Below, in pieces: positions 26,081 through 56,865 of a stretch of DNA of 64,000 bases. Both the position numbers and the translations under genes were made by a program. The stretch comes from Ilex aquifolium (taxonomy: Eukaryota; Streptophyta; Magnoliopsida; Aquifoliales; Aquifoliaceae). The notes under the pieces are model-generated. The model did no database searches. It saw nothing but the letters and a program-made list of their open reading frames with translations, and was not told where the DNA came from. The stretch covers positions 55,380,093 through 55,444,092 of the forward strand of contig OX637392.1 of NCBI GenBank assembly GCA_951799425.1, in the 5' to 3' direction. How positions within the stretch are numbered: the first letter of the stretch is position 1; each line of letters starts with the position of its first letter.

Positions 26081-27049
26081 GTGACAATGGTAGTGTGATG
26101 ATGGTAGTAGTGATAATAAATATAAGAATGAGATTACGATAGTGATGAGTGGCGGCGATACACAACGGTGGTAACAATCGGTGGTGGGTGGCGATGGTGG
26201 TTATAAGAGTGGAGTTGGGGCAGTGGCGATGGTGGTAGGGGTGGTGGTGGGGTGGCGACGATGATAGTGATGATGGTCGTGGGGGCGGTGGAGGTAAGAG
26301 TGATGGTGAGAAAGTGGCGGTGGTGGTAGGGGTGGGGGTGATGGCAGTGGGGATAGTAGTGGTGGGGGGTGGCAGCAATAGTGATAGTGGTGGTGGTGGT
26401 AGTGATGGTGGTTGTTGCGGTAAAGGTGGTGGTAGGGTGGCGACCATGGTGGTTATGGTGGTTGTGGTAGAGGTGGTGGTGGGGTGGTGGTGGGTCGATG
26501 GTGGTGGTGGTGGTGGTGATGACGACAGTTGTAGTGGTAGGGTGGCGGCAACGATAGTGGCAGCAACGGTGGTGTTGGTGGTTGTTGTAGTAGAGGTGGT
26601 GAGGGGGATGACGGCGACGGTGGTGGTGGTGGTAGTGGTAGTGGTGATGGTGGTGGAGTGGTGGTGGTGGGGGGGTAGTTGTGGTGGTGGAATGACTGTG
26701 GTAGTGGTAATGATGATGGTGGTTGGGCGATGGGGGTGGTTCTAAACACTACTTTTTTCTTTAAAGTACTTATGAGAAGTTATAAGTCATAGAAACACTT
26801 TTAAAAAGTCACATCAAATACACATTTAAAGACCTATTTTCCTTATTAAATTTGGAGTATTAATATTAGTCGTCGAATTAACTTTAAAATAAAATTTAAA
26901 AAGATCTCAAGTCTCAACCGTAAAAAATAAAAATCATTTTATTTATCTTTTGATTTGTATTATATTGTATTTTATTATATATATAGTATCACATGACAAT
27001 ATTAACGTGATATTACCATTGCAATAAATATTATCTCAATCAATACAAG

Positions 27050-34284: not shown

Positions 34285-35250
34285 AAGGGTATGTTCGAAT
34301 CGTGGGTTAAAGATGGATAACTCTGGTAAGATATGATAAAAAAACATGTGGAGCTCATGTATCACACGTTTGGTAATTAAAAAAATGCATAGGAAATCTC
34401 ATTTCGATTTTTATCCCGACTCGGTTTGAAAAATCAACTTTAACCCACCTATATGAGTTAAATGAAACTCAAGGGGGGTTGAGATATTTTTTTGCCAAAC
34501 AGGATATGTAATACAATTGATGGATATGCCCACCCTTAGGTGAGGAGATCTCCTTGGTTAATTTTGTAAACATTATATGTTGTTAACTTGAATGGTTGAT
34601 GAGATGTATTTTTTATTGTTACAATATATTTAAAAATATTTATTTTATATTTGAGTGAATTGTTAAAAAAAATAGATGTGAAAGCATAGTTTCCTATTTG
34701 AAATGAGTTGGAAGCTAATTTATAAACCAAATATGGTGGTGGATTGGATATAATATAGATATAACTAGTTATTGTTCATGCTTGAAGGCACGGTGTAATA
34801 AAAAATTGTCAATCATAAACATATTTGTATTCATACTCAAAATTAAATTACAAACATAGAGGAGAGATAAATAAATTTAAGCACCAATTGTAGTGATGGT
34901 GGTGATGGTGGAGGACGGTGATGGTTGTGATGGGCTACAACGACTGTAGTGGTGGTGGCAACCATGGTATGGCAATGATGATGGTGTGGTGGTGGGTTTT
35001 GAGTGACGATTGTGGTAGTGACAGTCATAAGTGACGGCGGTGGTGGTGTTGGGTGTGAGTGGTGGTGGACAACGGTGATGGTGATTGACAGTGGTGATGA
35101 TGAGGCAGCGACGGTGGTGATGGGTTATGGTGGTGGCGGCGGTGGTGGGTTATGGTGGTGGCGGCGGTGATGGGTTATGGTGGTGAGCGGTGACGATGAT
35201 GGTGGTGGGTGACGATGGGTGCTTGTGGACGACGGTGGTGGTATTGGAAC

Positions 35251-35579
35251 TAGGACTGTTAATCGAACGAGCCCGAGTTGAGTTCAAGCCCAGCTTGAAA
35301 AGCTTGTTTTTTAATCGAGTTTAAAAAATTGTTCAAGTTCGGCTCATTTAGGAAACGAGCCGAGCCTGAACGAGCCAAAAACAAGTCGAGCCCGAGTATT
35401 TGCACATAAACGAGTCGAGCCTGTCGAATTTGAGCCGAACTTGTAGGGCTTGTTTTCTAAACAAGCCAAAAATTTTGTTCAAGTTCGGATTTGTTTAGAA
35501 AACGAACCGAGCTTGAACGAGCCGAACCCAAACCGAACTCAAGTCAAGTTCGAGTAGCTCAGTTTGATTAACAGCCCTA
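35251..35579. mobile_element. 329-bp hAT-like MITE, GAGCC-rich family
   Basis: Ends TAGGACTGTTAATCGAAC and, inverted, TAGGGCTGTTAATCAAAC. The target duplication is ATTGGAAC/ATTGGAAT (7 of 8). The interior alternates GAGCCGAGC/GCTCGG and AAACGAG words. Exactly the same length as the copy at 53486-53814. Confidence 0.8.
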
Positions 35580-35587
35580 ATTGGAAT

Positions 35588-36895
35588 GAAAATTCCTATA
35601 ATCATTGACAATGCATATGTATCGAATACAAAAAAAAAAATTTCCTTTAAAACCCTACAAGGCGGAATTAGGGTTTACCTTCGAGATCGCTCTGGTTTGA
35701 TCTTATCTCAGCACAAAAGGCAGACGTAGAAGGTGGCTCGCTGAACCTCACGATCTTCTGTCGTATATCTCCAAACACCAAAAATCCAGATGTAGTATGG
35801 CCTGCAAGAACCTCTGAACTTCTGCTCTTTCTTTCAACCTCTCTTAAAACGTGAGTAATGAATTGATGCTGATTTAGAGAGCTCAGACGTCTATATATAG
35901 GCTACGACAGAAACTCTAAGGAGAAATAAGGACCGGGCTTCCAATGAGATTATGATTCCTATATTCAACCCAGAACAAACATCCTACAACCCATTAATAA
36001 TAAGTTAGTCCACTAAAAACTTATTACTGATCTCCTAAGTCTTATCTCAAAATTATATTCGAGCTCTTTATTATTATATGTTTAATAATCTCCCCACGTT
36101 TAAGATTACAGATGTCTATCAATTAAATAAATTATTGACAATTATATTTAATTGACTTTTTTTATTCTTTGAGACCTTACCACTCAACTTATTTGTCATG
36201 TCGGATAATTAAATCCACCTGCAATGTTTGACATGAACAAAACTTATGAGCTTCCTCAAGAAGACATCATCAACCCATTTAAATATCAGGACGTGGTTTC
36301 CTTTAATAATTAATTTTCACCATACAAATAATATCGTCTCCCAATTCACCGAGTTTATTGACTCAATATGAATATCACTTTTTGATGAATTAAAATAACG
36401 AACATTATATGCACGTGACAATTAAATATTTCAAGATTAAGAGTATAAGAGTATAAACAATCATAATAATCATGAGATATTTATTATCTTACTAAATCAG
36501 TAAAAAAATAATAACCTCAACATGAGTCTGTTTAATACACAAAGTGTACTAGCGCAATAATCTGAGACATCAAACAGTCTCCTACAGTCAAGAAAAACTA
36601 TACTAGAATATTACAATACAATTATACTGATGATGTGTCCAATTTGATCTAGGATTGTGAACCTATACTCATATTATACAAGGATCCGATAATCTGGTCT
36701 TTTGCGCATAAGCCGAACTTTACACATCAGATTATTTATAATGTAAAATATAAGGCACACATGCATACCATATATTAAATATAATGCAAATATTTTGTCC
36801 ACATAGATTCTCAATAAAATGGAAAGAACAAACTTTTATTAATTAATAAAATGAGTTTCACTACAAAAAATAAACTTTTAGTAAACAACTCTATC
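35588..36895 (-). mobile_element. LTR-retrotransposon-derived fragment inside GGT copy 2
   Basis: In minus orientation it shows a TATA box (GCCTATATATAGACG at about 35890-35904), a leader-like segment with TAAACCCTAATTC and an A/T-rich upstream (U3-like) part ending at the resumed GGT array. No gag-pol coding was seen, so it is probably a solo LTR or an LTR with a short internal piece. The termini are not certain. Confidence 0.4.
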
Positions 36896-37925
36896 AGGTG
36901 GTGGGTGGTAGCGAATGGCGGTGGTGGGTGACAATGGGTGGAGGCGATGGTAGGCGAAAACGGGTGGTGGTGGTGGGTTGTGGTAATGGGTGGCGGTGGG
37001 CAACGATGGTGATGGTGGGTGGTGGCGGTGGGCGACGGTGGTGGTGGGATGATGGTAATAGTGGTAATAAATATAAGAATGAGATAATAATGACGATGTT
37101 TGGTGGCAGTGATAACAATCGATGATCGTAACGATAGTGGTGGTGGTTGGTGACAATGATGGTGGTAATGGTGATGATGGTGGGGTGGTGTGGGTGATGG
37201 TGGTGGTGGGATGGTAGCGGTAGTGGTAGTGGTGATGGTGGCGGTGGTGGGGTGGTGGCGGTTGTGATAGGGAGACAACAACGATGGTGGAGGTAGTGGT
37301 TTGTGGCAGAGGTGATGGTGGGGTGACGATGGTGGTGGTAGTGTTGATGGTGGTGGTGGGGCAGTGGAGGTGGTGGTGGGATGATGACGATGGCGGTTGT
37401 GGTGGTAGTTGTGATGGTGATGGGACAGTGGAAATGGTGGTAATGGTGGTGGTGGTTATGACAGAGGTGATGGTGGAGTGACGGTGGTGGTGGTAGTGGT
37501 GGTAATGGTGGTGGGGTGAGGGTGGTAGTAATGGTGGTGGGGCGGTTCCAAAAACAATTTTTTTTTTTTAAGTGATTATGAGAAGTTAAAAGTTAGAGCG
37601 CCTATTTTTCCTATTAAATTTGGGGAGTTAATATTAACCGTCTGATTAACTTTAAAGTAAAATATAAAACAATTTTAACCGCGAAAAGCAAAAGTCATTT
37701 TTTTTTTAATCTTTTGAGATTTGAGATAACTAATGAAAACAAATTACATCACTCTTATCCATGTGCTCCACAAAAATGTATAATATGCCTAAACAGGGGA
37801 AAGAACTAGATATATCAATTTATATTCTATTTGAATGACAGCTGGGTAGATTTGGATTGGATAGAAAATAATATCTTTTTTAGATATCCAATCCACTCCA
37901 TCCTTGTCATCCAACGCTCGGAGTA

Positions 37926-39484: not shown

Positions 39485-42400
39485 TCAATTCCCCATGTAC
39501 GTAGGACCTCTTAGTTGAGCGTCCCGCTGCAATTGCCATTCTCTTTCTTTAAGATGTTGCAGAAGATGTGGCTGCTCGGCTCCCAGATCTATACCTGCAG
39601 GTCCTGTACCACATCCATAAGGGGATTGCCTTTGGTAGCCAAGAAAGAGTTTATCCCTGTTTAGTTCTTCCAGATGATAAACAGGAGGTGAACCTGGATG
39701 CGATTCTGGGCTCTCCAAATATACCATCCGGCTTGAAACCAAAGGATTTCCCCATCGATTAAAAAGATCAAACCTTGAAGTGTCATGACCATTGAAGTTT
39801 CCAATATTTCCAGGTGGATTGACTTGAACCGGTTGAACATGGTTATTAGCTAGCTCGTGATTGCGATTGTTTGCATACTGATAAAGCCATTCAGAAGAAC
39901 TCATTCCAAAAATTGGTGGGTATCCACCAATGAAACCTGGTACAACAGGACCAGAATCGAATGGTCTATGAGCTACAGACCAATTTGAGTATCCACCAAC
40001 AGGTGATGCACCAAGAATACCATCAGCTTCCTTAATCCCCACTGTGTTTTTGCTCTCAGAAAAACTTGAATTGCTCCTGAACCAAACAGCATCATCAGGT
40101 AATAAAGGGGCAGAGGGCACTGGAGCCACATATGGAGAGGAGTTGTTGCGGGTTATGGGAGAAACGTGCCCAGTTACATTGTCCTTAGCTTCGCTGATGG
40201 AGAGAGCATTCAAGGATGCAGAAGGTACTTCCTCAATAGGGCTCAACAAATGCTTATTATAATCCATTGTTCCTTTCTCTCTTTCAAGGTTCTGACAGCT
40301 ATTGAAGACCCAACCACTGAGTGAGGGAGGTCCTGCAGGGTATGTTGCTGAATCCTTCAAAATAGGCTCTTGCTGCTTGAATGGCTTGTTGAATCTGACA
40401 TTAGAGGTGTTTGAATGAAAATTGAAGGGATGAGTCTGCAACTGGTTTTGTGCTATAAGCAATGATGTGGCACGGCGCAAGCATTCATCAGAAGGTGCTG
40501 CGTGCTCCTTTGTACCTTCAGTAGAACTTTGATCATTTGTGGTGATGTAAGTATGAAGTGGTTCTGAATTATATCTCGCGAGAGGCTTGAAGAGAATGAC
40601 TTCCTCCTCTTCCACATTGAGAGATTCGACATTTGTACTAGGGTGTTTTTGATGCTTCCCATTGACTTCTTCCTCATTTTCTTCTGTGGTTCCACATTTA
40701 TGCTGATGGGACATTTTACCTTCATGAGAATAACTGCATGCCGCTACTTTTGTTCCTCCTTGGTCTTGAAGTTTCACCGACTCTGCCGTATAGAATTTTC
40801 TTCCCAACTTATCATAAAAGATCCACTTTTGAGAATCATTGGATCTGACCACCAATTTCATTGCAGCACGAAAGATACGATGGACACGACACACATTCAT
40901 ACTATCAAAATTGTCCATAAAATCCCCATGAGTAGTGAAATCCAATGGCAGATGTGATTGGGCCACGGGGGCAAAGCCCCTCAACTCGTACTCTTCCCAA
41001 AGAGCAGTATGATAAACAGACTCAACTTCATCCTCATTGTTATCAAGTCGGTTCAGAAGTTCAGCAAAAGCACCAAAAAAGTAAGACATTGCACAGGTAA
41101 CTTTTTCATCAGCGCAATACGCTCCTGCTTTATCAAGCATGCCAACCAACCACTCTATGAACACTAGCACAGCTGGTAAAAGGGAGTAGAAGTCCAGAAG
41201 ATTATCCTTTACACATCTATCAAGAAGGCGACCCATGCAAATGAATGTAGCCGTCCATGCCATTTGGATCAATGCAGACTGCTTCATATCCTTTTTAAGT
41301 TTTGGATCCTTTAGTTCTGGGCCTTCAGTCAGACTATGGATGACGAAGATCAATATGGAAACAAGTTGAACAGATCGATACGGGCCTCTTCGAACGGAAT
41401 TCAGATGTTGGTAGCACTCTAATGACGCTTTTAGTTTTGTATCATCTAGAGCCAGCAAAGCTTCCAACTCTCTCATGGTGGAAGCGAACACACCAGGGAA
41501 GTCCTTCAAACTGCATCACATATAAAGTTGCACCCCTCGTCAAAATTCAAATTAAAAATTTCAAACCTTGTCTAAACATCAGAAAACAGTTATTATTCTT
41601 CAAATTTCATAGTGGCAATACCGTGAAATGTAAATGCTTAAATGATATTTTTTTCATGAAATTTGTCCTAAAATCATTTTCCTAGTCTTGAGTGGTATCA
41701 ATTATTGCAGCAAGGTCAAGCAAATTATACATCTTGTTACATGTATCTGAGTGAGGGGGTACATTCGTAATCTTCCTCACGTGTCTGTTTATTCCAATTT
41801 TGATCCAACACAAGTGAATGAATACTTTTTTATTACCTTTGTTTTTTCAGTCTTACCTATTATTTATGTAAATACTAAAAATATGAGTTATCTTAATACA
41901 CAATTCTTTACGTTAAGTGAGACTTTTATAAGGTCCCGTCTTTTTAAAAATTCCAAACGACCTTAGGATGAGTTCTTTAATTTTAAGACCACTTGAAGAA
42001 ATATTCTTAAGGATCCTAAAAAAAGTTTTTTATTTAAACCTTCTTCAAGGAACATTCTAAAAATATACAAGGTATAAAGATATAAAAGAGACCTAAAATG
42101 TTCTTCTACATATTAAAAGACTAGATATTCGCATAAAAGATTCTAGAGACACTATAAATGTATAACATTTGATAAGATCATAATCATTCATGGTAAGACG
42201 AATGACCTATAAATAGGTGAAGGGTTTCACTTGTAAGAACCAAGAAACAAACAATCAAGTCTGAGCTTAAATTTGAGTCATTTTTCGTGTGTCAGAATTT
42301 TTACTTTATTATTATTTTTTTCAACACATAACAAATACACACAAAATAGTTAAAAAACAAAGTGGGTTGGGATAGCTTTCTATTCAAAATCCTACTAACA

Positions 42401-45400
42401 TTCATCATGTGAAAAATTATTTTGCTATATCAATAAATTTTAATTCTTTTTCTCTATATTTTTAACTGATAAACAGACTTTATTATATTTTGGTTTACAA
42501 ATTCAACTTCAACTAATGGAATTATATACGAAAAATTTGAATGCAAAATCAGAATTTGTATTTTTACATCTCAAAAATAAGAAAAATAGTTTTAAATACA
42601 TAATATTAATATTTGAATAATTATTTTGTCATATTTATATTATATTGTCATGGGCCTCATTTAATATTTTCGACCAGGGCCCAAATTTGGGTCGGGCTGC
42701 CCTGATGAGATATTAGGGTGGTCAACCCATTTTTAAGAAAAAGAGGTAAAGAACAAGTTTATATAATTTTGACTAACACCCATGAATCAGCTAATAACAC
42801 CAATATAAATTTCCAAATATTTTTTCACATCAAAATTATTTATAGAATGATCAAAAAACCATGTGAGAATACTATAAAATATGTGTGTGCCTACATAAAC
42901 ATGAAATGAATGGTTATCCAACAATGTTCACTGTTCAAAAAAGAGTGGTTATCCAACAAATAAGGAGTTATAACAATCTCCTAATTCCAACCAGGCCTCC
43001 AAAAATAGAAAAACAAGAAGTGATAAACGGATACCCTCCAACTATCAACGCCTCCAAAAATAGAAAAACAAGGAGTGATAAACGGTACCCTCCAACCATT
43101 AAGGCCACCTAAAATAGAAAAACAAGGAGTGATAAACGGGTACCCTCCAACCATCAAGGCGTCCAACAATAGAAAAATAAGGAGTGATAAACGGGTACCC
43201 GATAGGTTAAGTGCATTACATAATGTTAGTTATCTAAGGTGTTGCACCAGCTAGACTAGATACGACTGAATCATCTCGTACAATTCGCATGAAGTGAGTG
43301 AAACCAAGACATCTAAAAACCTCCCTACCACACATCTTTCTTTTTTTGTATTCATGTCCTCTACCCCTCCTTCAACAAAGATCAAGAGACCAGGCAACAA
43401 CTAAATCTGTCTCTATCTCATCATTTCTCTAAATATTCTTATTTTGGTCCATGAATGTGTCTTCGGCTTGGGTTGATTCTCCTCCTCATGGCATTAGCCA
43501 TGAACGTAGAGACATCATCAATTACTAATGATGCCAGCTGGAATTCTTTTGCCCATTACAACATCGATTCACCACGTTTCCACAGCATCGAGAACTGTAA
43601 TGGCAGAGTAGGTGACTGTATTGATGAGGCTGAAGAGATGATGATGGATTCTGAGGCTAGCCGGCAAACACTAGCCCTTGGGCAAAGGTTTGTGAGCTAC
43701 AGAGCTTTCAAGAAGGACCATGTTCCATGTAATCATCGTGGCTTATCCTACTATACATGCAATATTAAAGGAAGGGATTTTCCTTAAAGATCTAATTGCT
43801 GGATTATGTATATTAGCAAATCAATAACAATAAATGCATCATAATACTGGAAGCACGCCCAAATATCTTGCTGTTCTAAAATATTGTTCAGTTTAGGGAA
43901 AACCCATTAGTGTTGTTCTGATTGACGGAATGTGGTACATACCAAAAATCCATTCAATAAAACATACTTCCGATTTGAGTACATGACAAAGAGTTTTATA
44001 AAGCAGCCAACTTTTCTCTCTCAGATATGTTGGGCTACTAAAATCACCACAAAATTTTCAGATCAGGCAAAAGAGAATTCATTCTCATCATGCACAGATA
44101 ACCAGAGTTTTTATATAGGTGCAACTATAGTGAGTTTATCATCCAGGAAAATACGCTGTTAAATGAGATTGCAGATCAAAACAGCAGTAAGATTATAGTG
44201 ATGATACACTGGTACATAATACACACAAAATTAAGACATGAGCTTGAGTGAATTTGATATTAAAAGGATGATATGTTACACCAAGTACCTGGATCTTACG
44301 AAAAAGAAACTTATCATTCTGACAAAAAGAGGCCATATGTCAGTTTCTCCAGAGCACACATATTCAGCAGCTTCCACCTTATTTTTGCTCAAGGAACCAC
44401 TGCTTGTGTTTGACTTCATCCACGAAGAACTTCTCTCAGATGTTTTTAAGAAATCAAAGGCAGCCTCGGTGGAAAGCAAATGCAAAGAAGATGAACTGTT
44501 CTGCACCATAATAAAGAAAAACAAAGCACCACTGAGACTAATAAGAAACACGTCATAAATCCACCACAAGCTGAAAAGATTACTTAAAAGCAATATAAGG
44601 TCCCAGTATTATAAGGTAAGTAAAAGGTGATAATAACGATTCTTACGGTTTCAAAGAGTAACTTAAGATTATCCCAGGCATCAGGAAAAGGTTCTTTAAC
44701 AGCCAGGCTTCTAACGCAATGGTACAAGGCAAGAAAATCATCGCCAACATATGTTGCCAATAACGCCAGCTACAAAAGAAGTTAGATGATCAAATGTTAC
44801 CAATGAAATAGAAATGCTCCAAGCTTCATAAAATTTAATTTCTCGTAAATCAGCAATAATCAGATCCCACAGTAATCAAGACAATAATTTTTTTTGGTGG
44901 TGTTTACCTGATTTTGGGGATTCCCACTATCTGGCCAGATCATTGTTGCTTCTAAGTAGTAACTGGCTGCAAGTGACCAGTCACAGTTCTGAATAGCAAG
45001 TTTTTTACAAAGTTCTTGGTATCTAGCAAGATCCCCAAGGCAAACATAAAAACGATGACATGAATATCTATACTTGAGCAATTTTGCAGGTTCAATAGAA
45101 ACTGAGCCACCACCCATCCTATACAACAAAGGTTCCTCGGGGAGCTCATAACATCTTCTCAGTTCTGTGATCAAATTTTGGTAGTATTGAGCCGCTTCAG
45201 ACAGAAATGATTTGAATCCTTCCATATGATTGTCCATGATATTTTGCATACTCACAACATCTTGTGGAGTTCCAGATCTCGTATTCTCATCAGCAGAACT
45301 TTGCCGTATTCTTTTACGAAATTCATCAATATGCTTGTAGTGAAGCTTCCACAAAGAATATTCCACATCTTGAAATTCCACCGTTTCATGGTCATTCAAG

Positions 45401-45686
45401 ATGATGTCTTCATAACCATCGCGGACTTTGCGGTACAAGGCTTGAACGTCTTCGTGCAATGGACCTTTAGAGTTAATCAATGCCCACAACTGCTTTTCTG
45501 CACTGGCAACCTGAAAAGAGAACAATTTCAGTGGCCAAGAATTTCACGTTCATAGTGACTCTGCAGATCAAAATTTATGAATAAGAATTAAATTTAAATA
45601 CAAATGCAGCTTCAAGGGATCACCTCGACAAGATGACTCTGTTCTTCTTTCTGATCTTCAAGGATATTAGATGCATGAACACTCAT
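39485..45686 (-). CDS. SMG7L: SMG7L-like nonsense-mediated decay factor (EST1/14-3-3-like), 5 coding exons
   Basis: SMG7-like protein of the EST1/SMG5-SMG7 family; the 14-3-3-like N-terminal domain of such proteins binds phosphorylated UPF1 in mRNA surveillance. Exons: 45686-45624, 45510-44908, 44769-44647, 44500-44289, 41510-39485; 3027 nt, 1008 aa. It starts MSVHASNILEDQ; exon 2 has VASAEKQLWALINSKG and DVEYSLWKLHYKHIDEFR, typical of EST1 N-termini. Helical TPR-like repeats follow (LATYVGDDFLALYH; WPLFVRMISFFFV; CVKDNLLDFYSLLPAVLVF). The long last exon ends in a Pro/Gly/Asn-rich low-complexity tail (stop 39485). Splice phases close perfectly. SMG7L is preferred over SMG7 from the VEVA/VASAEKQLWALI-type N-terminus and overall layout. 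Intron 4 (41511-44288) contains a RALF-like gene on the other strand. Confidence 0.93.
42640..42705. mobile_element. Right-end remnant of a hAT-like element
   Basis: GGGCCTCATTTAA...GGTCGGGCTGCCCTG resembles the right terminus of the element at 19323-19883. The matching left end was not found, so it is probably a truncated copy in SMG7L intron 4. Confidence 0.4.
42995..43200. repeat. ~54-bp minisatellite, about 4 copies, SMG7L intron 4
   Basis: Repeated unit built of AATAGAAAAACAAGGAGTG, ATAAACGG and TACCCTCCAACCATCAAGG, with increasing similarity toward the right. It lies about 250 bp upstream of the RALF-type start codon. Confidence 0.85.
43455..43787 (+). CDS. RALF-type secreted peptide precursor, C-terminally shortened, nested in an SMG7L intron
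   Basis: A single-exon 110-aa precursor of the rapid alkalinization factor family; RALFs are secreted and signal through FERONIA-type receptor kinases with LLG/LRX partners. Residues 1-22 form a signal peptide (MCLRLGLILLLMALAM). The propeptide has the family pattern C48...GDC55...EEMMMDSE and RQTL in place of the usual RRxL site, still fitting RxxL. The mature region FVSYRAFKKDHVPC92 NHRGLSYYTC102 matches the YISY...VPC..RG.SYY.C core. It stops eight residues after the second Cys, so NPYxRGC and the last two Cys are missing and no downstream frame restores them. It could be a functional two-Cys variant or a pseudogene. It lies antisense within SMG7L intron 4. Confidence 0.78.
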   Translation: MCLRLGLILLLMALAMNVETSSITNDASWNSFAHYNIDSPRFHSIENCNGRVGDCIDEAEEMMMDSEASRQTLALGQRFVSYRAFKKDHVPCNHRGLSYYTCNIKGRDFP

Positions 45687-45706
45687 GATTTCCACTGAAC
45701 AGTTCT

Positions 45707-45742
45707 TCAATTATACCCAATCTTCTCTTGTATGGAGGGCAT
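45707..45742 (-). promoter_or_regulatory. Upstream ORF in the SMG7L leader
   Basis: An 11-codon uORF (MPSIQEKIGYN, then TGA) lies in the same leader exon as the main start, ending 20 nt before it. The exon begins at the acceptor AATGCAG (45747), so the uORF ATG is only four bases into the exon. A uORF can make a transcript sensitive to nonsense-mediated decay, the pathway this gene serves. Confidence 0.7.
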
Positions 45743-45746
45743 ATGC

Positions 45747-47295
45747 CTGCATTGGTGACTTTGTTATATGTAGAAACCACATTTATTGATGGAGACTACA
45801 AACTGCAGACAAACATCCTCGTAATGTTCGGATAAAATGCTATGGAATTTAATGTATTTTGATAATTGTGGCCAGTAAAAGTCATATAAATCATCCCATT
45901 GTTGGATAAAAGTTCTACATTTAAACAAATGACATTCTAACTCCAAACTAATCAAAATGTGCAGGCATCATGATTCATTTACCGTCCATTTCGTGACTAC
46001 AATTATAGGGTTTTCCTTGCTGTCTTTGATTTAAAAATAAATGTTGACGCGGCAAAGCCTCATTGCCAAGTCCAATGAGTATCCAAACTCGAAAAAGTAC
46101 CTAATTATTTGAACAACATTTGGTCACAATACATAAAAGAGTAGTTTGGTTAAGAAGCTTTCCTTTTGCACTTGACAACAATCATATGTATTTTGAGCTT
46201 AGTTATACAACTATATGTAGAAATGGTCTTAAGTTTGACTACTACTAAAATTCGAAATAAAATGAAGAAATCAGTGCACCAACTCAACTTAAGGTCACGG
46301 GTTTAAACCTTAAATCTCAACCGGGTTCTGCAACATTTTCGAGTCACTATTATCTAACCAAGAAATATAAATGGGGATTTTCAATCAAAATCAAATAAGC
46401 CACTAAGAAGATAAGAAGATGATCCTCATCATCATCATCCTTACCAAATCATAGCAGAGAAGTATGAAACAATCACTTCACTTGCAACCCAATTCCATTG
46501 AAACCTATTAACTTGTAAGGTAGACAAATCGATCGATCAAGCATAAAACAAAAATTCACACTAGCCATGTAAAAAAATAACTAAAATTAGAAGATTAGTT
46601 TTTTTTTTCCCCTATTGAAAAGGGGAGAAGCCAGTAGGTAGTAACTCCTTGGGCGTGACCATGAGAGTCCCCCAATATGGAATATCCGATTTGAGCCATA
46701 GCTACTAATCGTCACCACACCACCACTAGCACCACTAAAGCCATGGAGCAAAGCATGTTGCTACCATGAATCAAACCTTACTTGATAACCATATGGGAGT
46801 TAAGGACGACGCTCCACTAGACCACAAGTGCAGGGTGGTAATTAGAAGATTAGTTAAAAATGGAGAGACAGTACCTCTAATAATCAACAAACAAAGCACA
46901 TACAAAATGCAAAATTGGAGAGATATTGAAAATTAACAATAATTACATCCAACAAAACTCAATTAATAACAGTTTAGTCAGCAATATAACATCAAACAAA
47001 GTAAATTTAATCAGAAAAGAAAGAAAATTGAACTAGATAAAGCAGAGTACCTCAAGAATCTGCAAAAAGACTAACGATTAACTGTGACCACTTAGTAAAT
47101 TCACTGCAACAATATGAAGAAAACAACTGAGATAAAAACCAGCCAAGAACAACTGTGTGAGAGAGAGAGAGAGAGAGAGAGACAGGCGCGGGGAAAGGGA
47201 GATGCAAAGAAGGGGAAACCGGGTTTGGCCACTTTGACTTGTTCTTAGTTGTGAAACAGACAAAGGCAAAGGTGGCTTGTCTTGATGAACTAAAG
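45747..47295 (-). other. SMG7L 5' leader exon and leader intron
   Basis: A first non-coding exon likely ends at 47051 (TTCTTGAG|GTACTC) and is joined to the exon beginning at 45746 (AATGCAG|GCATATG). The leader is CT/GA-rich and includes a (TC)n run (minus) at 47159-47182. Intron 45747-47050 contains the SINE at 46601-46839 and otherwise AT-rich sequence. The TSS is inferred near 47290; no clear TATA box seen. Confidence 0.6.
46601..46839 (-). mobile_element. tRNA-derived SINE (239 bp) in the SMG7L leader intron
   Basis: Flanked by a perfect 16-bp target duplication AATTAGAAGATTAGTT (46585-46600 and 46840-46855). In minus orientation it has a Pol III A box (TGGTCTAGTGG, 46824-46814), a B box-like GGTTTGATTCATGG (46777-46764) about 37 bp away, and ends in a poly-A run (T run at 46601-46608). 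The intact duplication implies a fairly young insertion. Confidence 0.9.
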
Positions 47296-48613
47296 CAAAA
47301 GACTGTTTTACCCTTCTTTCTTAGCATTTTTTCATGTCATAAAGTAAGAATTAAAGGGGAAAAAGAGTAAAGTGAACTTATTATCATATGATCATTTTTA
47401 TCTGTGGAGGATCCCTTCTAATCCAAGCTATACTTATAGAATGGATTCTGATGATGCACAAAAATGGTTTTGCACACCACCTGTTAATTGTAATTAATAA
47501 ATGCAGTAAAATAGTAGGGAATAGGAAAAGGCAGAATTTATAGTGGTTCGGTCAACGTGACCTACGTCCACTCTTGAATGACTTTGGTTGCCGGGGAGCT
47601 TTTATTAACTCAAGGGAGCGGGGAGCAGAGTTTACAAGCTTTGAGAGAGAAGAGGGAGAGTCGTGCTCAGGTAAGTGTGATGCCCCCCAAGTGTTGGTGG
47701 GGCTTACAATTTATAGGGGTCCCCTAACAGGTTGGGCTACTCTTCAGCAACTTAGCAAGCATTTCGGTGGAGCTCACGACTTATCCTTAACGGGCGAGGT
47801 GGTTGAGGAGCTTCCATGAGATGCGGTCAAAGATAAGGTGAGGGTGGACCATTTCCTTCTGCTGTGCAGGTGATGCTCCTCTGCTCTCCCCTTGATGACG
47901 TGGCAAGGCATGAAGCCTGATTGGGCTTGGTGGATCTTAAATGAAGTTGGGCTCCTCAAATGGGGATTTGGGCTTTTTATATAGATTGGGCCATTTGGGC
48001 TTGACCCATCAGATTCTATTCTTTGCATCATACTATTTTATATTTTAGTAGGATAACTCGTGCCTAAAAGTACGTGCAATATGAATGGTCTTGAGAGGGA
48101 TGTTGATGACCGTTGAATAAACCTATTTGAGACCGTCGGATGAGTTTATTGAAATCTGCCTTATTTTATATTATAGATTATCGAAAATTGTTATGTTGCC
48201 CAAATCAAAACTTAAATATTTTATCTTAAATATATTTACATCACATATTGAGTGAAAAAAATCACTTTTTTAAAACCTACAAAATAATATGTGTGGTACA
48301 CACGCATTTAAGATATAAAATTTGGGTTTTGATTTGTGTAGCATAAGAGTGCTCTTTATTAGCATGATACCACCGTAAAATAGAGACCTCAAGAATAAGT
48401 TACTAGGTTTAATTTGATTCCCGAATAACTTTCATTTTTTACTAAAATGTACATCAACAATGCTATACACATCAATTTTATTTACCACCTTAACATAAGT
48501 CGTTAGATTAGTAGGTCCCACAGAGTTTATTAAATATTCACTGACTCTGATTATGCCACATTAGGTGGTGTAAGAAAAATGGTGCACAAAAGTGGTGTCC
48601 ACAACATTATTCA
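47296..48613. other. Intergenic with LTR-like segment
   Basis: No gene. 47520-48030 contains GTGGTTCGGTCAACGTGACC and a following GC-richer stretch typical of R/U5 regions of plant LTR retrotransposons, but no borders could be set. 48030-48613 is AT-rich without recognisable content. Confidence 0.4.
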
Positions 48614-48849
48614 ATTATAACCCCAAGGGGGGTAACTCAACTGGTAACAGAAACTAGATGTAAATTCAAACGTCTTGAATTCGAATCTTGGCAATTCCTT
48701 AGGGTCAAACCATAAGGGGATTTATCCTTTATGAATACCCTACTCCCGATATGGATGATCTATATTTGACCAGACTAGGGAGAAAATTAGTTAAAATGCG
48801 AGTGAATGGGTTCAGACATCCCTGACCGTTGAATAAAAAAAAAAACAAG
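48614..48849 (+). mobile_element. tRNA-derived SINE, Au-like family, copy 1
   Basis: A box-like GGTAACTCAACTGG (48631-48644), B box-like GAATTCGAATCT (48677-48688), a conserved body (GATTTATCC, ACCAGACTAGGGA) and tail TTGAATA followed by A's. Target duplication CATTATTCA (48605-48613 and 48850-48858). Confidence 0.82.
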
Positions 48850-49297
48850 CATTATTCAGTGTACATATTTCAAGCCTTACTAGAGACAAGACTCTCGTGT
48901 TTTTAAGTCGCCAAAAAACCACTAACATGTGTAGTTCCCCTTCCCTTAAGCTTAGAAGGAGGAATAGGAGCATATAAAATTAATGCAATGTTTAAAAAAA
49001 ATGGTGTGGAACATGTGCCCCTCTCTGGTGGGGGTGTTTTTCATCTTTTTTCTAGGGTTAAAGGAGTCATTTAAATTTGATTGGCCATAGATTGTAGAAG
49101 CTTCCATGGAAAAATGTTTAATAACATGGTAGATGACCTATGTGCCCCACCAGGACAATACCACCATTTGTTGCCATGAAAAAATTGATAACTACCAAGT
49201 ACCAACTCATTGGGATAGCTCACATTATAAGACTAGCAATATTTCAAGATTATAAATTCCAATTATCCATTCAATATATGTGTATAGATTGTTAATT

Positions 49298-49583
49298 TAG
49301 GGCTGGTAATCATGCCGAATTACTCAGATTCGGCTCAAATTCGACTCGAGCTCGACTCATTTTAACAATTTTTTTAAGTTTGTTTAGAAAAACAAGCTTA
49401 AAAAGACTCGATTTCGACTTTCAAACTTCTGTTCATTTATACGTAAAATAGTTGAGCTATTCGGGGCTCGGCTTATTTTGGGCTTAACTCGTTTTCTAAA
49501 CGAGCTAAGTATAAACAATTTTTTAAACTCTTTTAAAAAAACGAGCTTAACAGATCGTAAAACTCGACTCGATTATCAGTCCA
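49298..49583. mobile_element. Decayed copy of the GAGCC-rich hAT MITE
   Basis: TAGGGCTGGTAATC start, inverted TTGGACTGATAATCGAG end, and an interior of GAGCTCGACTC/AAACGAGC words like the 329-bp copies. No exact target duplication. Confidence 0.6.
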
Positions 49584-50903
49584 ATGATAATAAGTTAAGG
49601 GTTTTGATTGATTTGATGTGTATAGTGGTTGTGGCTAGTTATGTAAATCCAAAATTTGTATTATAAGTCTTGAATATTAAAAAGTTTATGATTGAAATGA
49701 TTCTCTAATTAAAAGACAACATCCTATTGTTATGTGGCTGGTTAATTTTAGGAATAGTTGGAGATTATTTCTGTTCAAACAGTGGAACCAACCAACCCCC
49801 TTTGAGAAAAGGAAGAAGTTGATAGTCAACAAAATTATGGCATGGCTTGGCATGGGGCCCCCATATGGGTCTATATAGTAGTTGTAAGGTTGATAATTTG
49901 GTCCAATTTAAAGCTAGATTCAAAAGCACATTAATTGCAATATATAAGATAAGCATGCCTAACATGGTGGTATGATCATGTGGGTTTGGACTTAGACATT
50001 GTATTGGATTATTTTCAATCATGACCAACAGATGCTAAGTGAGGAAAGTGATCAGATGGTAGAGAGAGAGAGAGAGAAAGTTCACCTCATTTTAGCATGA
50101 GGCTGCCACATGGTATAGATTTTAGGTTGTGTATTGGTCAATTATTGAGCTTGAGATGTGGTGAGGATAATATCTTTTATATTTTTCTTGTCGTCGTAGT
50201 TGTTTGATTGACACTTTTTTGGACACCATTTTTGGGGGTTGGTTCGTGTTTTAAACGAGTCAAATTTAAATAATTTTTTAGACTCATTTAAAAAACGAGT
50301 TTAAAAAAGTTCAGCTCAAGCTCACAAAACTCGGTTTATTTATATGTAAAATAGTTGAGTTATTCAGGTTTGACTCAAGTTCGGTTTGTTTTGGGCTCGA
50401 TTTGGGCTCGACTTATTTTCTAAACGAGCCAAGCTTGAATAAATTTTTCGACTTATTTAAAAATACAAACTTGACAAACTCGACTCGAACTCACAAATCT
50501 TGATTGGATTATGAGTCCTATTCACTCCATTAATTTTGAATAAACAAACAGTGATTTTTTAAGGTTCCAATGTCCAAACAATAATATCCCAAGTTAATAT
50601 GATAAGATTAAGTTACAATCAAATAGACTAAATTCTAACCTATTAAAATCGAGTTAGAATTTATTTGAAAAATTTATTATCAATTTTCAGATTTTAGACC
50701 TCATTGAATCTCAAATTAAAGACTCATTGAGATAGTACGCAAAGTAACTATCATACGATACTGGTGATATGATAGTTATTGACGATAAACATAGAGATAG
50801 AAAAAGATTAAAATGAACATTTTTTAATACAAAAATACAACGGCCAATAAATTGCAAAATAACCAACTTTTAAATCTCCTTCTCCAAATTAAATCTCATC
50901 CTA
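49584..50903. other. Intergenic, AT-rich, with a partial MITE
   Basis: No gene. 50240-50520 shows a further, more diverged partial copy of the GAGCC-rich MITE (AAACGAGTCAA, CTCGACTTATTTTC, AACTCGACTCGAAC). The remainder shows nothing recognisable. Confidence 0.45.
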
Positions 50904-51131
50904 ATTTTTTTTTCAATGGTTAGGAGTGTCCAAATCAGTTTACGCACATCTTGACTAATCCCTTCTCCGGTCCGGTCAAAGGCAATTCATCTATGTCGGG
51001 ACTAGGGTATTTATGAGGGATAAATTCTTCATGACTTGACTTCAAAGAGTTGTTAAGTTTCGAACTCAGAACATCTGAATTTACAATTCGTCCATGTTAC
51101 TATTTGAACTACCTTTAGAGAGTTATCACCT
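50904..51131 (-). mobile_element. tRNA-derived SINE, Au-like family, copy 2
   Basis: Minus orientation, with its A tail as a T run at 50904-50912. B box-like GAGTTCGAAACTT (51067-51055) and the body blocks GGGATTAGTCA and AATTTATCCC shared with the other copies. Confidence 0.75.
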
Positions 51132-51253
51132 CATTTTATCCATAAGAGCTTCACCATCAATCTTTTTTACTATACTCACCATCCTTACCGGGGAGGCTGT
51201 AATGTTATTACAAGGGGTGGCAGGCACTAGCTAGGATCCACCATGCAAGCAGC

Positions 51254-51254
51254 A

Positions 51255-51281
<27 letters not shown>
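51254..51281. repeat. (AG)n microsatellite
   Basis: About 14 AG dinucleotides. Confidence 0.95.
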
Positions 51282-51286
<5 letters not shown>

Positions 51287-51980
51287 ACATTTGCATTTGG
51301 ATTAATGGAAATCTTTGGTGATTATGATTGCACTTTTTTTTTGCATTAAAAATGGTGTCTGGGCCTCCTCGATTTGATCAAAGAGAGACCACCCACATCA
51401 AATTTTGATCAAAGAGAGACCACCCCATCAAATTTCGAACTCCAGATATCTAGGTTTAGAGCTCATTATTGTATCCACCGAGCTATCCTTTGCGATTCAA
51501 TTTTTTAGTCCTTATCTTTGGAGTTTATTATGGTGAAAAATCAAAATAGCTAGGCACGGGGCATCTTCTTCTTTCATCTTGATATAACTAGGGTTTTTGT
51601 CTACAATTACTCAGTTATAGTCATGATGTAATGTCACAAAATTAGCCATCCACTTGAAAAGCACTGAAAAACATTCGTCTCGGCATTAGACAATACACAC
51701 AAAATGCTATCTAGAACAAGACATTTGGCATTAATTATGATTTAAGGCATATCAAGGCGTAGCAAAGCCAAGAAAAGGACCCAGTCAGTACACTTGGGCG
51801 AATAGAGATCCCATCTAAGTAGATTGGAGACTCATGGCTTCCTTTATTTTTCGAATAAATAACGTTTGAACTTAATTTGTTAACATAATTTGTCGACCTA
51901 ATCATTCACTGTCATCGAATTGACAGTTTATCAATTCAATGGTTGTGATGAATTAGATTAACAAATTAAGTTATTAAATT

Positions 51981-52347
51981 GGGTAAAATACACTTTTAAT
52001 CTCCAAAGTATGCGTTTAGTGTCTATTTGGTCACCAATCTTTCAATTGTGTCTATTTGATCTATAAGGTTCCTAATTTGTATCTAAGTAGTTCAATTTCA
52101 AACATCAATAAAAAAATCGTGATGATTCTGGTAACACTTAATCACGTGGTTCCTAATTTTGTGTCTATTTAATCCCTAAAGTTCCTAATTTGTGTCTGTT
52201 TGATCTCACGTGATTGACGCGTGACCGAAGATATTAAAAAAAATTTGACGGATGTTTGGAATTGAACCACATAGATACAAATTATGAATCTTAGGGACCA
52301 AATAAACACTACACACATAATTTGGGGACAAAAAGTGTATTTTACCC
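51981..52347. mobile_element. Mutator-like MITE (367 bp)
   Basis: Inverted ends GGGTAAAATACACTTTT with a near-perfect 9-bp target duplication TATTAAATT/TATTGAATT (51972-51980, 52348-52356). The interior has inverted GTTCCTAATTTGTGTCT-type blocks. A 9-bp duplication fits the Mutator superfamily. Confidence 0.82.
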
Positions 52348-52356
52348 TATTGAATT

Positions 52357-53477
52357 AGGTCCAAATGGCATTGCTCTTATTTTTCAGACAGCTCTATTTA
52401 TTTGGAAGTGGAAGCAAATGGTTGGCTGTGGGCTCATGGATCACTGGGCTATGTACAGATCTGGCCCATCACATGATGGTCAATGGACAATGTGATAGCC
52501 AGCAGAGAGGTCCATGGAGAATGATATTGAGCCCATAGCCCATAAAATGAACTAATTGAGATCTGCAAAGATGAACTGATTGATAGGGCCCACAATCCGA
52601 TACATTGGCCCAACAAATTAAAAAAACTAAACATAGGTGAAATCAGAGGAAAAGAAAACTAAAATAGACACATTAGAAACACTCCAATGGGCATGTTAAC
52701 CCGATCCAACTCATTAATTGGTCAACAGCCCGACCCACAGCCCCCCATTGGACATATTTTTTGTCAAACACTATTACATAAGAAAAGGACGATCAGGTTC
52801 GAATTCAGCAATCTTAAAGTCCAACAGTGGATAAAATGATCATTAGATCAACCGCTAACCTTACCATTAGACATTAATTTGCCCCAAGATTAGTTGATTA
52901 GTTGGTAATCATGTTTGAAGTGTAAGGGAATTTTAGTATTGATAATCATATGTGGACTACTTCCTTAGGTTGTTACCACCTACAACTGCAAAATAGGTAA
53001 ATTATATTTTAACCCCTTCAACTATGACTCCTCTTCACATTGTCCCCTCAACTTTCATGTTCCACACATTGCACCTTCAATTATGTCATTGGATTCACAT
53101 TACTCCAAGATGTTAGCCCCTCGAATTTGTTTACATCTGTTAGAAAGTTAACGAAAAATATTTCATTTAGCCTCTCGAATTATGTGATTTTATTTCGCTT
53201 TGTCTCGATGCGTTGACATTTTCTATCCGAAAAGACAATAGATTTTTGAGTTTGAGACAATGTGAACAAACCAATAGTTCAAGGCACAAAGTGAAATTGA
53301 GTCTATAATTAAAAGGTTTGATTTTCATTAATATTCTGCTGATTAACAGCTGGTAAATTAATCCAGGGTTTGACAAAAAATAGAGAGAATGAACCTGGCA
53401 AATTAAGGAGGAGCGAGGTCCCATCCGATATATATTTTTTTCATTTCGTCCTTAATAAATTATCGATAGTAGATTCA
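52357..53477. other. Intergenic
   Basis: No gene is supported. Around 52985-53440, opposed blocks (CCCCTTCAACTATG... and ...CACAAAGTGAAATTG) hint at another decayed MITE, without clear ends. Confidence 0.4.
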
Positions 53478-53485
53478 CGTGTGAC

Positions 53486-53814
53486 TAGGGTTGTTAATCA
53501 AACTGAGCTACTTGAACTTGGCTTGAGCTCGGCTTAAGTTCGGCTCGTTCAGGCTTGGTTCGTTTTTTAAACAAGCCCGAACTTGAACAAGTTTTTAAGC
53601 TCGTTTAGAAAACAAGTCCAACAAACTCGGCTCAAACTCGACAGGCTCGGCTCGTTTATGTGCAAATATTTGGGCTCGGCTCGGGCTCGACTTATTTTTA
53701 ACTCGTTCAGGCTTAGCTTGTTTCCTAAACGAGTCAAACTTGAACAATTTTTTAAACTCGATTAAGAAACAAGCTTTTCAAGCTCGGCTCGAACTCGTTC
53801 GACTAACAACCCTA
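53486..53814. mobile_element. 329-bp hAT-like MITE, GAGCC-rich family, intact
   Basis: Ends TAGGGTTGTTAATCAAAC and, inverted, TAGGGTTGTTAGTCGAAC. Perfect 8-bp target duplication CGTGTGAC (53478-53485 and 53815-53822). Interior of GCTCGGCTC/AAACGAG words in inverted halves. Confidence 0.9.
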
Positions 53815-54053
53815 CGTGTGACTTAAGTGGATCCACATAAATACATGACGGATGATTTATCAAAAAAAAAAAACGAATATATATATCTCAAAGGAAATCA
53901 GGATTAAACCAAGGATGGCAAACAGTGCACATGAAAGTATCAAACTTGCAATCAATGACCCCCCAACCATAAGGTTTCAAAGTCCACAAAACCATATCCA
54001 CACAAACCAAAAAAGAAGGAAACAAACAAGACAAATGGACAAAACACAAAGAG

Positions 54054-54055
<2 letters not shown>

Positions 54056-54086
<31 letters not shown>
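54056..54086. repeat. 31-base poly-C tract
   Basis: An uninterrupted run of 31 C on the plus strand. It may be genuine, but homopolymers of this length are often assembly or polishing artefacts. Confidence 0.9.
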
Positions 54087-54812
54087 ATGTCTTCTTTTTC
54101 TTTCTTTTATCATCACAACTCCCACTTTCCTCCCACCTTCACTTTCCCATGTCTCCATTCATAAGGGTTTGGTCTTTCTTTTTTTTTTTTGAGTCAAAAG
54201 AGACTTAAATGTGTTGGCTGTAGAAAAAGATGAACTAACTTTGAATGATTTCTATACACCAATTCAAAGTTGCCTTAAAGAATTTTGACTTAGGAAACTG
54301 AGGTGGGTCATTGTTTTTCTGTCATAGTTCCCCAGTCAGGTGGGACCAAAATACTATGGGTCTCATCTGTTTTTCCTGTGGCCGAAACCATTACAATTGG
54401 GGGCAGGAAGATTTCTAATCATTATAAGAAATTATACTTATTTCAATACTCTTCTCAACTCGATTCAATAAAGCCTTTTTTTTTTCAATTATTTGGGTCA
54501 GATAAGCGTTTCTTTGTGTTCTATTAAGGGCCATATTTTCCGTTAAATCTCAATTTGGGAGTAGTTTCACAGGTTCAGATTATTAGATTAACATGATCCA
54601 CTTCTTAGTGCAATACACATTAGCAATCAGCTTGTGGAAAATCAACCCAAACATCATCACATATCTACTTTGACCCCACTTAGATTTTCTACACAAAAAA
54701 ACATAAGAACAAGGATACATATGCTGTAGTAATGTGTAGAATTCTCATTCAGAATGACCCAATTAATTAGACCAAAGTCATGAAAGTTAATCAATGATCG
54801 ACGTGCTTAGTA
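54087..54812. other. Intergenic
   Basis: I see nothing recognisable here beyond T-rich tracts. Confidence 0.45.
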
Positions 54813-55023
54813 ATCAGGAGTTTCCGGGTCAGTTTACGCGCACATTGACTAATCCTCTTCCTGATCCGGTCAAAGGTAGGTGATCCACGCCGGGATTAAG
54901 GTATTTATATGGGATAAATTCCTACTGAACTTGCTCCAAGAGTTAGTCAAGATTCGAACTCAGGATGTCTAGATTTACAATTCATCTTTTTTTACCACTT
55001 GAGCTACCTTGGGGTTGTAATCC
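54813..55023 (-). mobile_element. tRNA-derived SINE, Au-like family, copy 3
   Basis: Minus orientation. B box-like GAGTTCGAATCTTG (54962-54949), A box side AGGTAGCTCAAGTGG (near 55012) and shared body GATCCGGTCA-type and GGGATAAATT (inverted) blocks. Ends are not sharp and no clear target duplication was found. Confidence 0.72.
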
Positions 55024-56109
55024 AAATACTATCACCACCTCAAAGATGAGAATTCTAAATAAAACTCTCTGCTTCTGAAAAAATTTCCAAGATAAAAAAA
55101 TTCAAGCAATCACCCAGTGAAAGCCATTTGAGTATGTAAAATAGAGCAGTTCTAATGGGAATCCTTACACATCAATTGGTGCTTCTGTCTTCTATCATGA
55201 ACCATGAAACTTACTACATGAAGATGCATCAACGTGGTTACTCTAAATGTTAGGGAATATCTATGGAGTAAGACTATGGTTTTGAATGAGGTGCTGTACC
55301 AAAAATTATAACTTTTTTCGGCACGTTACGACAAAAAAAAGTAGGATTCATTCTAACATTTTTTGGATCGATCTTCAACAAATACAGTCAGTGTTTACAT
55401 GCCTTGTGTAGTGCAAATAAAATTATTAAAAAAAAATCATTGAATACTTACAACACAAGCACATAGTATGCTTCATGCCATGCCTGCCTTCTCTTGGCAT
55501 TTTCCTCTCTAACAGACAGACAATAAAAGAGTCAAGATTCCTTGCCCATTCCCCCATTTCTCTACTCTTTCCTTTGACAGGTAATAAGCCTATTCCAATA
55601 CCCCCTCCTCTCTTCTCCTTTTTTCCCACCCAAAAACAAAATACACTCATCCCAAACAGCCCATTATGACATGTAACATTACATTTGCCTATGTTATCAA
55701 CCCAACCATTGATTCAAAAGCTTCAAAACTTGTGGGATTAGAACTTATAATTATTTGATCGTAACATTCCACCAAGTCACGTCCACACCGACTTGCTCTA
55801 TCGATATTAGTTCAACGGTAGCCCTTTCTTTTTTGCGGCTTCACTCACCTACCGGTATTCATCGCGAAAGCACAATACCCATATATAATACTAAAACATT
55901 GTAATCTAATTTATAGGTCGCCCCGAACTCATAATGTGGTGTTTATTCTGATATCAATTGTTATGAACTGAATCATTAATCCAAAAGTTCATGACTTGTG
56001 AGGGATTAAAGCTCGTAACTATATGATCGTAACAGCCTCATTGATTCCATATTACATATAAACTTAGTTATATAATCATACAGGCAAAAAAAATAAATAA
56101 AACCCTAAT
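55024..56109. other. Intergenic and 3' flank of the VQ gene
   Basis: No gene is supported. The right end likely includes the VQ gene 3' UTR. A ~50-bp block on not-fully-matching direct repeats (ATTATTTGATCGTAAC at 55752 and CTATATGATCGTAACAG at 56019) suggests a decayed repeat element. Confidence 0.45.
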
Positions 56110-56865
56110 TCAAGAAAATGAATTAGAAGAACCTGAAACTCTAGGAGATGAAACTGGGAACAAGGGCAAGAGTCGGAGCTCCGAATCCCTCGGAGTATTC
56201 GCCGGAGATGGATGGAAGAAAAAACCCTTTTTGGCAATCGCTTTGTCCTCAGCTTCCAAATCCAAATTATTTCCAATAACACCAGTGTGTGGAGACCTGT
56301 TAAACGGGTCGGGTATGAGAGGAGTAACCGGGCTGAGAACCAGAGATGGAAAATCAAGAATACTCGGTGACAAAATCTCAGGCGTTCCGGGTTTTCGAGG
56401 GGAATTCGAATACCCACCTGAAAACCCGGAATTGTTCAGGAGTCCGGGGATCAAAGGGCTAATCTTGAAGTTCTTGAGACTGTTTCTTCTCTCGTAGAGT
56501 TTCGAAGCTTTATCTTTCCTGGGTCCGGTTTTGATGGGTGGAATAGGGTGGTTTCTTGGTGGGTCGGGCCTGGACACAGCGGTGGCGGCAGCAGCGACCT
56601 TGGCGGTTTCTGAGGATCCGGTGAGCATCTGAACAACTTGCTTGAAGGAGGTGGTGTCTGCTTGGACGAAGGTTGTTGGGTACGGGTTGTTGGGTTCGGA
56701 TCTGGTGATGGGTAGGGGTGTGGTGGGTGCTTGTGGTGGTGGTAATGGTTGATGATGGAGTCCATCGCTGCTGGTGCTACTGCTTGAACTGGTGGTTCCA
56801 TGGCTATTTGGGGATGGTAAGAGAGATGGGTTTCGGTTTTCTTGGAATTTTAGTGAGTTTTCCAT
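56110..56865 (-). CDS. VQ4-like: VQ motif-containing protein (VQ4/MVQ type), single exon, 251 aa
   Basis: VQ proteins are nuclear cofactors of WRKY transcription factors, and several of this type are MAPK substrates in immunity. The VQ motif is FKQVVQMLTG at residues 74-83 (F74, V78-Q79, T82-G83), embedded in TTFVQADTTSFKQ as in the VQ4/13 group. Before it lies a Ser/Pro-rich tail; after it, a basic KLYERRNSLKNF (helix) and several Ser-Pro sites (ISPLIPG, ILSPSILDFPSLVLSPVTPLIPDPF, HPSPANTPR) that look like MAPK targets, and an SSPRVSGSSNSFS end. The start is the first ATG after a long CT-rich leader (56866-57000). Uninterrupted, no sign of decay. Confidence 0.93.
   Translation of the reverse strand: MENSLKFQENRNPSLLPSPNSHGTTSSSSSTSSDGLHHQPLPPPQAPTTPLPITRSEPNNPYPTTFVQADTTSFKQVVQMLTGSSETAKVAAAATAVSRPDPPRNHPIPPIKTGPRKDKASKLYERRNSLKNFKISPLIPGLLNNSGFSGGYSNSPRKPGTPEILSPSILDFPSLVLSPVTPLIPDPFNRSPHTGVIGNNLDLEAEDKAIAKKGFFFHPSPANTPRDSELRLLPLFPVSSPRVSGSSNSFS

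Follow-up and report, generated by a model that had tools for sequence, protein, structure and literature searches.

A RALF gene apparently split between the fourth intron of SMG7L and the SMG7L-VQ interval

Introduction

In Arabidopsis, SMG7L is AT1G28260 (PMC6232500), RALF4 is AT1G28270 (PMC11591785), and VQ4 and VQ13 are AT1G28280 and At2g33780, respectively (PMC4585807). SMG7L, RALF4, and VQ4 thus carry consecutive locus numbers, and the same three families are found in the window that we describe, a 64,000-bp stretch with plant gene content (C2:55380093-55444092 of an 800-Mb, 103-contig genome). A sequence-only reading of this DNA had recognized the three families and their microsynteny, and both are borne out by Pfam domains and by the Arabidopsis numbering, the two blocks being compared by locus number. 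Unlike in Arabidopsis, the RALF here is in two pieces, and the larger one lies within SMG7L.

The four cysteines of RALF peptides form two disulfides, and a RALF4 in which all of them are replaced binds LRR extensins less strongly (PMC9113046). According to the same report, two-cysteine RALFs make up 10 of 61 in Brassica napus, have either cysteines 1 and 2 or cysteines 3 and 4, and belong to clades III and IV (PMC9113046). The RALF in the SMG7L intron resembles these atypical peptides in having two of the four cysteines in its ORF; on the other hand, its relatives are four-cysteine RALFs, and its loss lies at the edge of the proposed rearrangement. With RALF4/RALF19-type peptides (Pfam PF05498) it has in common a signal-peptide-like start, a propeptide, and the VPC..SYYxC core, but it stops before NPYxRGC, leaving cysteines 3 and 4 outside the ORF.

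Nested genes and natural antisense overlaps offer a second comparison; in strawberry, a putative natural antisense region is reported to contain FveRALF3 (PMC7098601). As in such systems, the RALF sits on the opposite strand in an intron of its host, although here the nested gene looks broken. For the host, Arabidopsis SMG7L is reported to have no redundancy with SMG7 in NMD or meiosis (PMC6232500) and to be dispensable for NMD (PMC3711448). In the literature on RALF microsynteny and nested genes, covered in part through titles and the beginnings of abstracts, we found no description of a RALF nested in SMG7L.

Results

When joined, the five coding exons of SMG7L encode 1008 aa with no internal stop, and all four introns begin with GT and end with AG (Table 1). 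The EST1 and EST1_DNA_bind domains both score above the Pfam cut-off; EST1_DNA_bind (residues 202-519) runs uninterrupted across the 44289/41510 join at residue 334, and the first 489 residues match the EST1A and SMG-7 chains in the PDB. A genome search with the last exon returned three matches, namely, SMG7L itself and relatives on C15 and C9 at 33% identity, which we take to be putative SMG7 genes. Assignment of the window copy to the SMG7L rather than the SMG7 branch rests on synteny, since it is the one copy beside VQ and RALF.

Aligned by eye, both relatives have an intron at the same codon and in the same phase as SMG7L intron 4, measuring 87 and 88 bp and with the AG placed before TTTG or CTTG. 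Since position and phase are common to both, intron 4 is older than the split from these relatives, which therefore excludes a 5' extension of SMG7L and supports the 44289/41510 junction independently of RNA data. Such an extension across an older RALF had been one of two explanations offered by the sequence-only reading. While it is consistent with the order of exons around the RALF, we consider it extremely improbable given the shared intron, the continuous EST1_DNA_bind domain, and the normal N-terminal EST1 part with its PDB matches. As judged from the alignments, the join is sound and the intron ancestral.

Table 1. Features of the SMG7L-RALF-VQ locus and the intact RALF paralogues grouping with it (window positions unless a contig is given).
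Feature	Position	Strand	Remarks
SMG7L coding region	39485..45686	-	spliced open frame, GT-AG introns; Pfam PF10374 and PF10373
SMG7L coding exons (n=5)	45686-45624, 45510-44908, 44769-44647, 44500-44289, 41510-39485	-	
SMG7L fourth coding intron	41511..44288	-	2778 bp, phase 2
RALF4/19-type gene, 5' part	43455..43787	+	encodes signal-peptide-like start, propeptide, and the half of the mature peptide that bears cysteines 1 and 2
TCCTTA, intron piece	43781..43786	+	at 3' edge of RALF homology
Solo LTR	47449..48011		563 bp, TG...CA ends, 5-bp target duplication GATTC
Dispersed repeat	50922..51116		close upstream of RALF remnant
RALF C-terminal remnant	51180..51230	+	16 codons and stop; reads HPYRGGCNVITRGGRH; fourth cysteine lost
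TCCTTA, gap piece	51182..51187	+	at 5' edge of RALF homology
VQ-motif gene (VQ4-like)	56110..56865	-	open frame of 251 aa; convergent with RALF pieces
Intact RALF L005	C4:46684035		of the same group
Intact RALF L021	C4:37849708		of the same group
Intact RALF L022	C10:5009151		of the same group

The RALF frame lies inside intron 4 on the strand opposite to SMG7L, as had been claimed. Family and position stand, but not the wholeness of the gene: the ORF matches the Pfam RALF profile (E 5.8e-14) over positions 1-47 of 65, ends ahead of cysteines 3 and 4, and after 110 open codons has a TAA on the Tyr codon of the conserved NPY motif. Judged by its alignment to the intact paralogue L021, the ORF has a signal-peptide-like start and a propeptide, and both of its PDB matches are RALF-like 4 sequences. 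The S1P site, canonically RRxL, reads RQTL, retaining R-x-x-L without the RR, and FVSY stands in place of YISY; only two of the four conserved cysteines are reached before the ORF is over. A 55-bp tandem repeat of 3.8 copies occupies 42993-43200 of the same intron, upstream of the RALF part.

Beyond the stop, the profile match can continue to position 57 of 65 with one TAA inside, a gain of ~2.5 bits that we take as chance. Downstream of the stop, 13 of 39 nt are identical to L021, and 11% of random placements in the intron reach this value. We considered a Tyr-to-stop point mutation with a decayed tail behind it and rejected it, as likeness past the stop is at chance level and a clear tail lies at 51180. 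On the same evidence, we dropped a simulation-based argument for selection on the ORF that drew on the decay of this supposed tail.

The clear tail is a C-terminal RALF remnant between SMG7L and VQ, on the same strand as the intron RALF and 7.4 kb from it. It reads HPYRGGCNVITRGGRH followed by a stop, compared to NPYSRGCNIITRCGRH followed by a stop in L021, and is changed at conserved places, with cysteine 3 kept, cysteine 4 lost, and the Arg of RGC altered. When the three intact RALF paralogues were used as tblastn queries against the gap (8.9-kb subject), all three matched one place (E 5.8e-4, 8.8e-4, and 0.023). The intron RALF itself gave chance-level matches only, as expected because the tail is absent from it. 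In a 16-residue scan, the remnant scored 66, while 300 simulated gaps averaged 24.8 (sd 4.0) and reached 41 at most, and in 179,966 bases of 18 loci the only matches of at least 38 were the 13 true RALFs. Identity to L021 is 35/48 nt in the remnant tail versus 10/45 nt just upstream. We saw no plausible pair of sites for splicing the intron piece to the remnant in 43720-43787 and 51110-51200, where GT occurs at 43722, 43729, and 43738 and AG at 51117, 51119, 51121, 51145, 51147, and 51194. The sequence-only reading had set an intact RALF between SMG7L and VQ against its own account; RALF sequence is indeed present there, but as this remnant rather than as an intact gene.

To compare the two pieces, sliding 16-residue segments of L021 were matched to intron 4 and to the gap, with 12 simulated sequences per region. 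Within intron 4, segments passed at starts 1-9, 41-65, and 73-97, while the variable stretch between failed and none passed beyond residue 112. On the plus strand of the gap, the sole segment to pass was the C-terminal one; the other strand gave one weak hydrophobic match at 51270. Intron RALF and remnant thus divide the protein between them, with the edge at NPY in both, and the TAA of the intron RALF coincides with the Tyr codon at the homology edge. Both edges carry TCCTTA, a hexamer that is not rare, with five occurrences in 43701-51300. We infer that the two pieces derive from one gene and not from two copies, and that a RALF4/19-type gene beside VQ was probably broken by a local rearrangement that placed its 5' part in SMG7L intron 4.

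The main rival is duplication and decay, in which the RALF was copied, for example by tandem duplication of the SMG7L 5' half together with the RALF or by duplicative insertion, with one copy ending up truncated in intron 4 and the original eroding in the gap until its tail was left. This would yield the same order and orientation, and the dispersed repeat near the gap remnant could have removed the remnant's 5' part. Just upstream of the tail, FYYT shows a weak likeness at the protein level that hints at a second copy, although the DNA likeness of 51100-51180 to the intron RALF copy is non-significant, with 139 of 1000 shuffles reaching the score. SMG7L exon sequence was sought in the intron, the gap, and the vicinity of the paralogous RALFs, with chance-level matches or none. 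Neither RALF 5' sequence in the gap nor SMG7L exons 1-4 in the intron rose above chance, and a second copy would not explain why both edges fall at the same codons; we regard duplication and decay as a credible but rather unlikely origin.

Misordering of contig blocks in the assembly would also give a block order that departs from expectation. However, the remnant itself is altered at conserved places (the fourth cysteine and the Arg of RGC), and the 11 direct-repeat families listed for 36000-60000 all lie outside 43250-43950, making such an artefact very unlikely.

The gap had been described as about 9 kb of transposon-rich DNA. It measures 10.4 kb between coding sequences (45686 to 56110) and ~8.9 kb from the presumed SMG7L 5' end, placed by eye near 47.2 kb. 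The solo LTR and short repeats bear out part of this description, but when 47200-56109 was scanned in six frames, not a single domain scored at or above its curated cut-off. A DNA search with 47250-51160, in which 40 of 11,738 first-look candidates were scored, found at least 39 other copies of the solo LTR at 96-99%; eight pairs of the copies listed are spaced by 4.1-4.2 kb, the arrangement expected for both ends of one LTR element. The dispersed repeat upstream of the remnant has a second window copy at 54816-54986 (matching 50922-51092), its part at 50999-51116 matches another locus (L018), and further short dispersed repeats in the gap match other loci.

The solo LTR lies ~250 bp from the CT-rich presumed SMG7L 5' end and could affect the SMG7L promoter. 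Elsewhere in the window, GGTGGT/GATGGT-rich repeats at 24300-27000 and 34750-37720 match the same stretches of other loci, and ORFs at 29227-29805 resemble, by eye, a LINE reverse-transcriptase remnant. On the minus strand at 1500-19000, there are ORFs with the look of exons encoding a LEUNIG-type WD40 co-repressor.

A search of the genome for the RALF family gave 65 matches, and we examined the 13 other RALFs with at least 77 bits, leaving out 51 weaker family matches. In all 13, the frame continues through an NPY, NSY, or HPY...GC tail. The tree of these 14 RALFs groups the intron RALF with L005, L021, and L022 (support 94/95, not starred), and its end branch is the longest of the group (0.87 vs 0.54, 0.13, and 0.084). 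The label RALF4/19-type is drawn from synteny and the PDB match, as the tree contains no Arabidopsis RALFs. Among the weaker matches, clusters at C10:8.85-9.23 Mb (19 or so), C3:36.86-37.00 Mb (8), and C9:5.756-5.774 Mb (6) have frames of 49-137 aa, which suggests local expansion of divergent RALF-like genes.

In a codon model with 106 columns and one topology, omega was 0.37 on the intron RALF branch, which also spans time before the break, versus 0.22 elsewhere. An omega of 1 on this branch was only narrowly disfavoured (LRT 3.70, about P 0.05), and equality with the other branches was kept (LRT 1.05). When neutral drift to 10% divergence was simulated, the intron ORF stayed open in 38% of runs with substitutions only and in 2.3% at an assumed indel rate.

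These results bear on whether the intron ORF may be a functional nested gene, with a promoter of its own and a secreted two-cysteine RALF-like peptide as its product. The open frame, signal-peptide-like start, R-x-x-L site, and branch omega would agree with such a gene, as would the two-cysteine RALFs of B. napus (PMC9113046). On the other hand, the ORF is cut at a conserved motif and has FVSY for YISY, its nearest relatives have four cysteines, its branch is fast, and its openness fits limited neutral drift. We therefore consider a functional nested gene improbable. Our assessments of origin and of function answer separate questions and do not sum to one.

The VQ gene is intact, with FKQVVQMLTG fitting FxxxVQxxTG and a Pfam VQ match at E 4.3e-11, and lies 12.3 kb from the intron RALF 5' part. 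Its close relatives are at C10:4994052 (+, 68%) and C4:37793828 (+, 64%), with four others listed at no more than 46%. The C10 copy is paired with the intact RALF L022 (-), convergent and ~14.4 kb away, and the C4 copy with L021 (-), convergent and ~55 kb away. Since both close VQ copies have intact convergent RALF partners, RALF-VQ linkage is old. Around L005, the third intact RALF of the group (C4:46.68 Mb), no VQ match was found within the 20 kb read.

For VQ, dS is 1.6 when the window copy is compared to the others and 0.37 for C10-C4; for RALF, the window values are 2.8 and 2.2, near saturation, compared to 0.55 for C10-C4. Therefore, the C10/C4 pair is younger than the window block. The 30 kb examined on C10 contained no SMG7L-like sequence, and the C4 VQ-RALF interval was read in part. 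We take the ORFs in the C10 VQ-RALF interval to be DEP1-like and the ORF on the other side of the RALF to be early-nodulin-like. This order at C10:4.994-5.014 Mb (L022/L028), VQ - DEP1-like - RALF - early-nodulin-like, presumably resembles the Arabidopsis VQ33 neighbourhood. Arabidopsis RALF19 (At2g33775) adjoins VQ13 (At2g33780).

Discussion

We propose that the ancestral order was SMG7L - RALF - VQ, with the plus-strand RALF and VQ in convergent orientation. The RALF would then have been broken at its NPY codons by a local rearrangement, and its 5' part (signal peptide, propeptide, and first mature half) would have come to lie antisense in the ancestral fourth coding intron of SMG7L, an intron that would have lengthened to 2.8 kb from probably ~90 bp. 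Between SMG7L and VQ, the last 16 RALF codons would have stayed in place and begun to decay, while SMG7L splicing would have continued across the RALF piece, as it presumably does in vivo. We rate the feature as a real local gene break; the rearrangement itself, its direction, and the loss of RALF function are our interpretation of the two pieces. Between the explanations offered by the sequence-only reading, its proposal that the RALF had moved is the nearer one, although it was a truncated 5' piece that changed place or was duplicated, and a 3' remnant still lies between SMG7L and VQ. Against a split, the open 110-codon ORF and its omega leave room for selection; moreover, the tail is just 16 codons long, TCCTTA is not rare, and L005 has no VQ in the 20 kb read around it.

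Most likely, the intron RALF is a non-functional gene fragment, and as many as three intact paralogues probably fulfil the role of the group. It is improbable that the break yielded a C-terminally truncated two-cysteine RALF that would be transcribed antisense in SMG7L, secreted, and under selection, for example as an antagonist of the intact RALFs of the group; such a putative antagonist would lack the C-terminal module and keep the mature peptide's N-terminal half. Transcriptional interference between SMG7L and the RALF had also been suggested. We see no support for regulated interference because the intron RALF looks broken, being without cysteines 3 and 4, and Arabidopsis SMG7L is reported to be neither redundant with SMG7 in NMD or meiosis (PMC6232500) nor needed for NMD (PMC3711448).

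Together, these findings indicate that an apparent nested gene can arise as a by-product of rearrangement, and that claims of functional nesting should await a search for remnants at the expected syntenic position. Altogether, RALF-VQ linkage is old and has been kept in three blocks of one genome, in which the copy on the SMG7L side is broken and intact paralogues remain.
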